From Bacteroidota bacterium (GTDB lineage: Bacteria; Bacteroidota; Bacteroidia; NS11-12g; UBA955), in assembly GCA_027488835.1 (NCBI GenBank), contig JAIYAW010000001.1, positions 424,254 through 488,253 on the forward strand: a stretch of 64,000 nucleotides of DNA. The letters are read 5' to 3'. Below, in pieces: positions 57,069 through 60,292 of this stretch. Numbering within the stretch: the first letter of the stretch is position 1; each line of letters opens with the position of its first letter. Under the pieces are notes generated by a model, which saw only the letters and a list, made by a program, of their open reading frames with translations, did not search any database and had not been told where the DNA came from. A program made the translations under genes and the position numbers.

Positions 57069-58304
57069 GTGAAATTAGATCAGTTAATACAGAAATTTGA
57101 GGGAAAACAACCAGAAATTGTTTTCGCTTGGAAAGATGCCGAAACAGAGGCGGAAGGTTGGATTGTTATCAATTCATTAAGAAACGGTGCTGCTGGTGGT
57201 GGAACCAGAATGCGTAAAGGATTAAACCAACGCGAAGTGGAAAGCCTTGCAAAAACCATGGAAGTGAAATTCACGGTTGCCGGCCCTCCAATTGGTGGTG
57301 CCAAGTCTGGTATCAATTTCGATCCTGCTGATCCACGTAAAAAAGGGGTTTTAGAACGCTGGTACAAAGCCGTTCGACCACTTTTGAAAAACTATTACGG
57401 TACAGGTGGCGATTTAAACGTGGATGAAATTCACGAAGTAATTCCAATGACAGCCGCTTTGGGTGTGTTACATCCCCAAGAAGGTGTTGTTGCAGGACAC
57501 TTAACACAATACACTCCAGAAGATAAATTAAAGGCAATTTCTCGTTTGCAAAAAGGAGTTTTGTTGCCAATTACCGATGAGCGTTTGAGTCCAGATGTTG
57601 CCAAAGAATTAACCATAGCCGACATGATTACCGGTTGGGGTGTTGCCGAAGGTGTTCGTCACTATTACGAAGTGTATGGTGGATTCATGAACAACAAATT
57701 GGCAATTATTCAAGGTTGGGGTAATGTTGCTGCGGCAGCTGCTTTCTACTTAACCAAATACGGTGTTCGTATTGGAGGGATCATTGACAGAAATAGCGGT
57801 ATTATCAATAAAAATGGGTTGGGACATGAAGAAATTTTAGAATTGTTCTTAACCCGTGATGGCAATTCATTGAATACGCCAAACATGATGACATTTGAAG
57901 AGGTGAATGCCCAAATTTGGGATTTGCCAGCTGAAATATTTATTCCAGGTGCTGCCAGTCGTTTGGTAACCGAAGACCAAGTAAATCGCATGGCGAAATC
58001 GGGGATCGAAGTGGTTTCTTGTGGTGCAAACGTTCCGTTTGCCGATGAAGAAATTTTCATGGGACCAATTTCTCGCCTTGCCGACAGTCAATTTGCTGTG
58101 ATTCCAGATTTCATTGCAAACTGTGGAATGGCGCGTGTATTTGCCTATTTGATGAAACAAGATGCCGAAGTAACCGACGTTGCCATTTTCAAAGACGTAA
58201 GCAACATCATCCGTTCTAGCATCATGCGCGTGCACCAATTCAATCCAAAAACCACTGGCCTCAGCGCCAAGGCGTTGGAAATGAGTTTGACAGATCTTGT
58301 GTAG
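57069..58304 (+). CDS. Glu/Leu/Phe/Val dehydrogenase
   Basis: GGGTRMRKGLNQREVESLAKTMEVKFTVAGPPIGGAKSGINFDP, GGDLNVDE, IIQGWGNVAAAAAFYLTKYG. GTG start. Confidence 0.92.
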   Translation: MKLDQLIQKFEGKQPEIVFAWKDAETEAEGWIVINSLRNGAAGGGTRMRKGLNQREVESLAKTMEVKFTVAGPPIGGAKSGINFDPADPRKKGVLERWYKAVRPLLKNYYGTGGDLNVDEIHEVIPMTAALGVLHPQEGVVAGHLTQYTPEDKLKAISRLQKGVLLPITDERLSPDVAKELTIADMITGWGVAEGVRHYYEVYGGFMNNKLAIIQGWGNVAAAAAFYLTKYGVRIGGIIDRNSGIINKNGLGHEEILELFLTRDGNSLNTPNMMTFEEVNAQIWDLPAEIFIPGAASRLVTEDQVNRMAKSGIEVVSCGANVPFADEEIFMGPISRLADSQFAVIPDFIANCGMARVFAYLMKQDAEVTDVAIFKDVSNIIRSSIMRVHQFNPKTTGLSAKALEMSLTDLV

Positions 58305-58313
58305 GAATACTAA

Positions 58314-58373
58314 GGTTTATAAAAGTTTATAAGGGTTTATAAAAGTTTATGAGGGTTTATAAAGGTTGATAAA
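58314..58373 (+). repeat. Left repeat array: three 20-bp units ggtttataaaagtttataag
   Basis: ggtttataaaagtttataag / ggtttataaaagtttatgag / ggtttataaaggttgataaa read directly. Confidence 0.9.
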
Positions 58374-58386
58374 CGATGAACAAAAT

Positions 58387-58423
58387 AAAAGGTAGTGCTG
58401 AAATTTCAACACTGCCTTTTTTT
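58387..58423 (+). terminator. Terminator hairpin, plus-strand T-tract
   Basis: aaaaggtagtgctgaaatttcaacactgccttttttt; 13-bp stem with one mismatch. Confidence 0.75.
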
Positions 58424-58802
58424 AAATAGTTTTCGCACTAGCACTTAATGTGTACTTTGATAATGAGTTTACCTGAAATGTTATAATTTGGATGTATTTA
58501 CGGGTTTCTAAATACGAATACGAATCAACAAATTCAATTTCATTTGCGATAATAAGTTGATTCAACAATTCAAAGGAACTTGAAATTGCATATTGATAAA
58601 ATCGGGCTTGTTCTTTTCCTAATTTTCTGCCACATCCTTCGGCAATATTAGATGCAATTGATATTGCAGCCCTTCTCATCTGGTTTGTTAGGCCATTCAT
58701 TTCTGAATGCGGAAATTTACCTGTGATTTTATAAATGGATTTGCAAAGTTTATTCGCGTTTTGCCAAGCCTCAAGTTTTTCAAATGAATATATGTATTTT
58801 AT
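58422..58802 (-). CDS. Four-helix-bundle protein (S23/Avd-like); canonical start codon apparently missing
   Basis: The frame is open well upstream of the listed M (58700): (ATA)KYIYSFEKLEAWQNANKLCKSIYKITGKFPHSEMNGLTNQMRRAAISIASNIAEGCGRKLGKEQARFYQYAISSSFELLNQLIIANEIEF... matches the four-helix-bundle family. Confidence 0.8.
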   Translation of the reverse strand: MKYIYSFEKLEAWQNANKLCKSIYKITGKFPHSEMNGLTNQMRRAAISIASNIAEGCGRKLGKEQARFYQYAISSSFELLNQLIIANEIEFVDSYSYLETRKYIQIITFQVNSLSKYTLSASAKTI

Positions 58803-58860
58803 CTTGATTGGAATTACCCTTTTATATTATATTTCCCCCATAAATTATGATATAATAAAT

Positions 58861-59064
58861 GTTTATAAACGATTATTTTCTATTTAACAATTCCCGAAAC
58901 CCTTATAAACTTTTATAAACGCTCTATAAACTTTTATAAACCTTCCTATTCCCTTAAAAAATGTTTATAAACGATTATTTTATTTTTAACTATGTCAAAA
59001 ACCCTTATAAACTTTTATAAACGCTCTATAAACTTTTATAAACCTTCTTATTTCCTTAATTTTG
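58861..59064 (+). repeat. Right repeat array: two 102-bp tandem units
   Basis: Units 58861-58962 and 58963-59064 each begin gtttataaacgattatttt and contain the identical block cccttataaacttttataaacgctctataaacttttataaaccttc. Confidence 0.92.
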
Positions 59065-59068
59065 ACCT

Positions 59069-60292
59069 ATGAACCTAGAACACCGTTTCTGCAATTATGT
59101 GAAAATTGATACGCAAAGTGATCCTGAGTCAACTACGTTTCCGAGTACCGAAAAACAAAAAGATTTGAGTAGGGTTTTGGTGGCCGAATTGTTGGAAATG
59201 GGATTAACCGATGCGCATTTAGATGAGTTTGGTTATGTGTATGCTACGTTGCCGTCGAATGTAAATAAAAAAGTGCCTGTAATTTGCTTTTGCTCTCATG
59301 TTGATACCTCTCCAGATTGCACTGGGGCCAATGTGAAACCCATTGTGCATAGAAATTATCAAGGACAAGACATAGTGCTTCCCGACGATACTTCTCAGGT
59401 AATTAAACCATCGGAACACCCATATTTGTTAGAAAGAATTGGTGACGATATTGTTACCGCTTCGGGTACAACCCTTTTGGGAGCTGATGATAAAGCAGGC
59501 GTTGCCGTGATTATGGATTTCGTTCAAAAAATGGTTCAAAATCCGAATATCCCTCATGGCGATATTAAAATTTTATTTACCCCAGATGAGGAAATTGGAC
59601 ATGGGGTAGATCATGTAAATATTGAAAAATTAGGGGCCGATTATGGCTATACCCTCGATGCAGGTGAGCGCGGTTGCTACGAAGATGAAACGTTTAGCGC
59701 CGATGGTGCAACAGTGAATTTTTATGGAATTTCTGCCCATCCTGGTTATGCCAAAGATAAGTTGGTGAATGCGTTGAAAATTGCTGGCGATTTTTTAAGC
59801 CGTTTGCCAAAGAATGAATGGAGTCCTGAAACCACGTCTGATCGTGAGGGATTTGTTCACCCGGTTACCATGGGTGGCGGTGCCGAGCATGCCTATGTAA
59901 AATTCATTGTGAGGGACTTTATTACAGCGAATTTGGCAGAGCACGAAGCAAAGTTGAAGTCGTTGATGGAGGCTACAGTAGCTGATTATCCGGGAGCAAC
60001 AGCAAGTATGGAAGTGGCTGAGCAATATCGCAATATGAAAGATGTGGTTCAATTGACACCTGAAATTTCTGAATATGCAATCAAGGCAATTGAAATGGCT
60101 GGTATGACGCCACAGTTAACGAGTGCACGCGGCGGAACCGATGGTAGCAGATTGAGCTTCATGGGATTGCCTTGTCCGAATATTTTCACTGGTGAAATGG
60201 CATTTCATGGAAAGCACGAATATGTGAGCGTTCAAGACATGGAAAAAGCGAGTGAGGTATTGGTACATTTGAGCGGTTTGTGGGCACAATAG
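59069..60292 (+). CDS. pepT: Peptidase T
   Basis: FCNYVKIDTQSDPESTTFPSTEKQKDLSRVL, CSHVDTSPDCTGANVKP, TLLGADDKAGVAVIMD, FTPDEEIGHGVDH. Confidence 0.95.
   Translation: MNLEHRFCNYVKIDTQSDPESTTFPSTEKQKDLSRVLVAELLEMGLTDAHLDEFGYVYATLPSNVNKKVPVICFCSHVDTSPDCTGANVKPIVHRNYQGQDIVLPDDTSQVIKPSEHPYLLERIGDDIVTASGTTLLGADDKAGVAVIMDFVQKMVQNPNIPHGDIKILFTPDEEIGHGVDHVNIEKLGADYGYTLDAGERGCYEDETFSADGATVNFYGISAHPGYAKDKLVNALKIAGDFLSRLPKNEWSPETTSDREGFVHPVTMGGGAEHAYVKFIVRDFITANLAEHEAKLKSLMEATVADYPGATASMEVAEQYRNMKDVVQLTPEISEYAIKAIEMAGMTPQLTSARGGTDGSRLSFMGLPCPNIFTGEMAFHGKHEYVSVQDMEKASEVLVHLSGLWAQ

Follow-up and report, generated by a model that had tools for sequence, protein, structure and literature searches.

The window, a stretch of 64,000 nt from a bacterial genome of 2.49 Mb (labelled G000), holds between a Glu/Leu dehydrogenase gene and pepT an open frame of the four-helix-bundle gene family (PF05635/TIGR02436, hereafter 4HB), enclosed by arrays of short repeats. 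The left array starts about 10 nt past the stop codon of the dehydrogenase gene, and the features of the locus are as follows:

57069-58304, plus strand: Glu/Leu dehydrogenase gene, left neighbour (open frame; adjoins pepT in relatives too)
58315-58375 (end approximate), plus strand: left arm, 10-nt units GTTTATRARN, with the G-rich strand towards the 4HB gene
58384-58423, no strand assigned: putative terminator-like hairpin, followed on either strand by a run of T, which separates the left arm from the 4HB stop (inverted repeat, read from the sequence)
58422-58826, minus strand: 4HB open frame (23S_rRNA_IVP / TIGR02436), 134 aa (profile matches, AlphaFold)
58853-58954, minus strand: right arm, inner copy, with the palindrome GTTTATAAAC and an inverted array at 58897-58944
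58955-59056, minus strand: right arm, outer copy, a tandem duplicate of the inner copy with an inverted array at 58999-59046
59069-60292, plus strand: pepT, right neighbour (open frame; kept beside the dehydrogenase gene in relatives)

Exact matches to GTTTATAAA number 15 in the window against 2.3 expected, a count that no shuffle attained, and 11 of the 15 fall in 58315-59043. The left array (plus strand) and the right arrays (minus strand) pair as inverted repeats: positions 58315-58338 pair with both 58897-58920 and 58999-59022 over 24/24 nt, and 58304-58331 pairs in the same inverted manner with 58925-58952 over 28 nt at 93%. A sequence-only reading of the window had proposed that the frame is enclosed by inverted arrays, and these 24/24-nt pairings, together with the enrichment of the repeat, confirm it. 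The same reading had taken a palindrome as the basic word; the repeat unit is instead the 10-nt direct repeat GTTTATRARN, and the palindrome occurs in two places only (58861-58870 and 58963-58972). On the right, a 102-bp unit occurs twice in tandem (58853-58954 and 58955-59056, identity 92/102), and no transposase ORF was found among the open frames inside the element.

In profile searches the frame matches PF05635 (E 4e-30, above the cut-off) and TIGR02436, "four helix bundle protein" (E 2e-28), and it is the single 4HB gene of the genome. Its N-terminus (frame 58826-58422, minus strand) lacks ATG, GTG or TTG, with none in frame upstream, and an ATA at 58802-58800 occupies the position of the ATG in the gene of the congener G005. 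The missing standard start codon may be due to decay, to the use of a rare start or to an error in the assembly; because a normal start is absent and the units are of 10 nt, the copy in the window may be decaying. AlphaFold models the protein as a bundle of four helices (pLDDT 95.7), which structure comparison places closest to XCC0516, BT_0352 and Avd, the likeness to Avd being seen in a match to 4dwl (TM-score 0.69-0.76 by query, about 110 residues) and to the PHROG Avd profile (E 2e-4). Sequence and fold bear out the earlier leads to 23S rRNA intervening-sequence proteins and to Avd. In diversity-generating retroelements Avd is a pentamer that binds nucleic acid, and both crystal entries of the 4HB family contain five chains. 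Since the crystals are five-chained and Avd is pentameric, a 4HB ring that reads periodic units is plausible by analogy. The protein is probably nucleic-acid binding. Phages and viral contigs yielded no 4HB protein when searched, and a DNA-level search of plasmids with another 4HB gene was likewise negative. A function as a defence gene was considered and set aside, no PADLOC match being obtained.

In eight related loci the dehydrogenase-pepT junction is empty, measuring 22-176 nt with neither the 4HB gene nor arrays, and the element was therefore gained on this lineage or lost elsewhere. A comparison with such empty junctions had been suggested as a way to define the ends; the junctions were found, but they give no clean ends or target duplication, the intergenic DNA being too diverged. 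Four congeners (G000, G005, G007 and G011) carry related 4HB proteins at this site, with identities of 61% between G000 and G005, 71% between G007 and G011, and 45-48% between the two pairs. The words of their arrays differ by species while the arms agree within each of the four loci, and in a matrix of left against right arms the best-scoring partner of every left arm is the right arm of its own locus; since the words vary by species yet the arms agree per locus, both arms change together. At the locus of G007 (L195, G007:C34) the 3' end of the dehydrogenase gene, in the left flank of the 4HB gene, runs directly into its reverse complement, forming at the array boundary a near-perfect palindrome some 40 nt long. 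In a more distant bacterium (L118:7334-7585) the 4HB gene lies directly after the dehydrogenase gene with another gene next door, and GGTGTTGGGTATTAGG-type repeats stand on either side of it in inverted order.

Inverted arms across the family and beyond Bacteroidota

Most of 13 further 4HB loci of the genus have inverted short arrays as flanks, and the words vary (GGGTTTC, GGTGATC, GGTCTTT, GAATGAT, GATTAGAC and others). When the left flank was aligned with the reverse complement of the right flank to give an arm score, 22 of 35 4HB loci from the genus, family and order lay above all 300 control windows. Among 89 loci of the phylum, mostly the best-scoring family members, 69% scored above the 95th percentile of control genes and 54% above the 99th (448 genes from 20 of the sampled genomes; p=5e-29), a value which, like those of the other alignment-score and Fisher tests, counts related genomes as independent, and such p-values overstate independence, given the kinship of the genomes and the non-random choice of sampled windows. 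Flanks in direct orientation were not enriched at the same loci (p=0.08), and 31% of the 89 lay below the 95% threshold, about a third being without detectable arms. Dinucleotide shuffles gave 59 of 88 loci above all 100 shuffles versus 1 of 100 control windows, one locus present twice in the set (L235 = L323) having been reduced to a single copy for this test only. The arms are periodic at 7 and 14, with identities of 0.54 and 0.56 against 0.24-0.30 at other periods, and in the 21 genomes with at least two sampled loci the two arms of a locus resemble each other much more closely than they do the arms of other 4HB loci of that genome (p=6e-12, one duplicate locus included). A 4HB gene was found in 117 of 149 Bacteroidota genomes of the phylum sample (79%) and in 0 of 14 named controls. 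The architecture is general in Bacteroidota: the 4HB gene stands between inverted short-repeat arrays, usually of 7-nt units, with a locus-specific word. The proposal that gene and inverted arrays form a unit is supported, and the same architecture recurs with the family far beyond G000.

In addition to Bacteroidota, the architecture is seen in examples from Cyanobacteria, and it occurs on a Riemerella plasmid and in an Azospirillum rRNA operon. Among 21 plasmid-borne loci, from cyanobacteria, Azospirillum, Gemmatirosa and Riemerella (Bacteroidota), 11 have a score of at least 20, against a local 95th percentile of 16.4. On plasmid AZO_p2 of Azospirillum lipoferum 4B the 4HB gene lies in an rRNA operon, inside a full-length 23S rRNA gene (L403:1990-2380), and its arms are heptamer arrays (GAGGACGGATGACAGAGGACGGAGGACAGA); the record used for this locus carries no annotated features. 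The Coxiella intervening sequence is reported to contain GACAGAT heptamers (PMC4990558), and these heptamer arms in Azospirillum and Coxiella indicate that rRNA intervening sequences and free-standing 4HB genes are of one design. One 4HB copy is placed between the two ribonucleotide reductase genes. In two cyanobacteria (L237, L410) type I-D CRISPR operons carry the gene between cas6 and cas4, and at another locus (L239) it lies between cas10 and a cmr3 family gene.

Dispersal of the words and co-occurrence with the gene

Genome censuses were made by pattern searches plus sampled stretches. The doubled GTTTATRARN unit has 124 matches in the 2.49 Mb of G000 versus 0 in a reversed control, and since this genome has a single 4HB gene, arrays of the window's word also occur apart from the gene. 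The word was found in 6 of the 15 genomes available for the genus and almost nowhere else among 57 relatives; G005 has 63 matches and four other congeners have fewer. The suggestion that TTTATAAAC is a conserved signal of the family was rejected, the word being genome-specific and dispersed and relatives using other words. G000 and G005 are the top two genomes for the window's word and are the two in which GTTTATRARN flanks the 4HB gene. The word has 31 matches in G014, in which no 4HB gene was detected, and this genome may be a relic, may have lost its gene to a contig break or may be a counter-example; G007, G009 and G011 carry the word as well, and the 4HB loci read there have other flanking words. 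Among the listed arrays of six word/genome sets, neighbours on opposite strands less than 300 bp apart were inward in 11 cases and outward in none, and the inward orientation of these gene-less pairs is that found around the 4HB gene. Four gene-less mini elements of G000 (m1-m4) have a common core of about 60 nt between their arms. The stretch G000:C1:136660-139505 holds four miniature inverted-array elements with a common core, clustered within 3 kb.

Three further words were counted across the 15 congeners. The GGTGRTC word (GGTGRTCGGTGRTCGGT) has 187 matches in G012 and 4 in G003, the CGGGTWW word (CGGGTWWCGGGTWWCGGGT) 106 in G003, and the GAATKRT word (GAATKRTGAATKRTGAATK) 37 in G006 and 16 in G010, with 0 in all other congeners in each case. 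The top genomes for these words are the ones whose 4HB gene is flanked by the word in question, and, bar 4 stray matches, 3 of the 4 words tested are limited to genomes whose 4HB gene they flank. This word-by-genome pattern is partly expected if any array uses its genome's words; the inverted enclosure is not. Two observations stand side by side, namely that the matching of the arms is locus-specific and that arrays of the same word are dispersed in the same genomes. The earlier idea of a repeat-binding gene with its own sites fits the pattern for three of the four words, whereas the window's word is also present in congeners without such a gene.

The association was also seen in scan windows which had not been chosen around 4HB genes. 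Period-7 arrays numbered 27 in 738 kb from 35 genomes with the 4HB gene against 0 in 1,078 kb from 34 genomes without it, the positive genomes being 13 of 35 and 0 of 34, respectively (Fisher 6e-5); a stricter threshold gave 18 versus 0 (9e-4), and repeat periods other than 7 showed no such contrast. Genomes without the gene were sampled more deeply than those with it, which works against the reported contrast, and kinship is only partly controlled, the genus and several families each containing genomes of both classes. Another 50 named genomes, which overlap the earlier sample and are left out of these counts, gave a consistent picture, with a search that placed 4 of 4 loci with period-7 arrays in genomes with the 4HB gene. 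Period-7 arrays were present only in sampled genomes with a 4HB gene, and a 23S intervening sequence in Azospirillum is of the same design. The sequence-only reading had named generic, genome-wide repeats lacking any association with the family as evidence against itself; the arrays are indeed dispersed genome-wide, but a lack of association with the family is contradicted.

Known systems and competing explanations

The element in the window shares with the 23S rRNA intervening sequences of Coxiella, Leptospira and Azospirillum an ORF of the same protein family (23S_rRNA_IVP) and inverted, stem-capable arms that enclose this ORF and can pair around it, and the arms in Azospirillum contain heptamer repeats, as does the Coxiella arm (PMC4990558). 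It differs from them in lying between the dehydrogenase gene and pepT, outside 23S rRNA, and in the genome-wide dispersal of its word, which was not found described for intervening sequences. REPIN-RAYT systems likewise have a gene between inverted short repeats, dispersed gene-less inverted pairs and a genome-specific sequence; here, however, the repeats are tandem words of 7-10 nt and not single hairpins, the four-helix-bundle protein has no recognised nuclease domain, and G000 has no match to a Y1 (HUH) transposase. With diversity-generating retroelements the element has in common an Avd-like protein (by the 4dwl fold and the PHROG profile), whereas G000 has no reverse transcriptase match. 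Membership of both systems fails because neither enzyme was found in G000. The heptamer repeats of cyanobacteria and Xanthomonas (STRR; GGGAATC; TAACTGA) are also intergenic and dispersed, with 7-nt units, against 10 nt in the window and mostly 7 nt in its relatives. In Xanthomonas they form 70-75 convergent inverted pairs (PMC4692102), and Xcc encodes the 4HB protein XCC0516 (PDB 2gsc); a further difference is that no gene is tied to heptamer repeats in the accessible papers.

Our leading explanation, held with slightly better than even confidence, is a widespread gene-plus-repeat system in which the 4HB protein is encoded between inverted arrays that are its substrate. The 23S intervening sequences are best read as one case of this 4HB/array system, which would resemble REPIN-RAYT with a non-nuclease protein, the protein being the putative cause and the element putatively mobile. 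In the proposed mechanism the palindromic arms would fold out as single-stranded DNA or RNA hairpins, and a 4HB ring would bind their periodic units, the oligomer thus recognising the array or its hairpin. The protein may then promote the copying of arrays, or the conversion of either arm to the sequence of its partner, using host replication enzymes; repair or replication would copy an arm into new intergenic sites, and such copying would hold the two arms to one sequence even as the word diverges from species to species. Gene-less inverted pairs and other arrays of the word would be dispersed non-autonomous relatives, and the whole element may move. A role at the level of DNA or replication, with the 4HB ring acting on hairpin-forming arrays and keeping them alike, is favoured. 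The broader proposal, that the 4HB protein drives short inverted arrays without any known nuclease and so explains both the origin of 23S intervening sequences and bacterial heptamer repeats as one selfish gene-repeat system, is more tentative and falls a little short of even. Several observations stand against a gene-repeat system: the word in G014 without a detected gene, the mismatched words of G007, G009 and G011, the 31% of loci below threshold, and in the window itself the 10-nt unit and the absent start codon.

What 23S intervening sequences and their encoded protein do, and where they come from, is still described as unclear (PMC4990558), and heptamer repeats have been little studied (PMC4692102). 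The window locus links the two via one protein family. If the 4HB protein acts on the arrays, it would constitute a new route for repeats to spread and stay alike without a recognised transposase, and the questions of intervening sequences and of heptamers would both become testable. No report linking a 4HB gene with short repeat arrays was found in the literature searched, which left out most subscription journals and all preprints, and an earlier one may exist.

Among the alternatives, an insulating role at the RNA level ranks first, and is judged rather unlikely. The arms would be kept as a stem cuttable by RNase III around the 4HB gene, as in 23S intervening sequences, so that the element is tolerated in operons and rRNA genes, while the arrays would grow by slippage and the protein would not drive their dispersal. 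The predicted RNA fold does pair the arms around the gene (-182 versus -132 +/- 6 kcal/mol, z -8), 4HB genes do lie inside operons (ribonucleotide reductase, cas6/cas4, cas10/cmr3 family) as well as in 23S rRNA, and the Coxiella elements are excised by RNase III (PMC4990558). However, a terminator-like hairpin separates the left arm from the 4HB gene of the window, and because of it the 4HB mRNA may miss one arm; moreover, this reading leaves unexplained both the gene-less arrays with this word at other sites of the genome and the lack of such arrays in sampled genomes without 4HB.

It is improbable that the arrays are independent repeats spread by another process, among which 4HB elements merely settle or survive. 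Such a process would accommodate the heptamers of Xanthomonas and Nostoc, for which no link to a 4HB gene is noted (PMC4692102), the TAACTGA repeats of Beggiatoaceae, cyanobacteria and five Bacteroidetes (PMC4679880), and the case of G014, which has arrays of the window's word but no detected 4HB gene. An element inserted into a pre-existing array would, however, have direct flanks, and only inverted flanks are enriched; locus-specific arms and the lack of period-7 arrays in all 34 sampled genomes without 4HB also argue against it.

Very improbable is the action of known drivers, whether REPINs moved by a Y1 transposase (RAYT) or the products of a reverse transcriptase with an Avd-like partner, even though a lone gene flanked by its repeats, with dispersed inverted pairs, resembles REPIN-RAYT and the 4HB fold resembles Avd. 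The Y1 transposase profile PF01797 has 0 matches in G000 and in the array-bearing congeners, its matches in the genus being confined to G013, which has neither a 4HB match nor any of the tested words; the reverse transcriptase profile PF00078 has 0 matches in G000 and, within the genus, one in G012 only. Chance or an isolated local repeat expansion at the dehydrogenase-pepT junction, which the A+T-rich low-complexity DNA and the tandem duplication there might suggest, has a negligible probability and was ruled out by the window shuffles, the genome-wide control (124 array matches versus 0) and the phylum-wide statistics with their 448 control genes.
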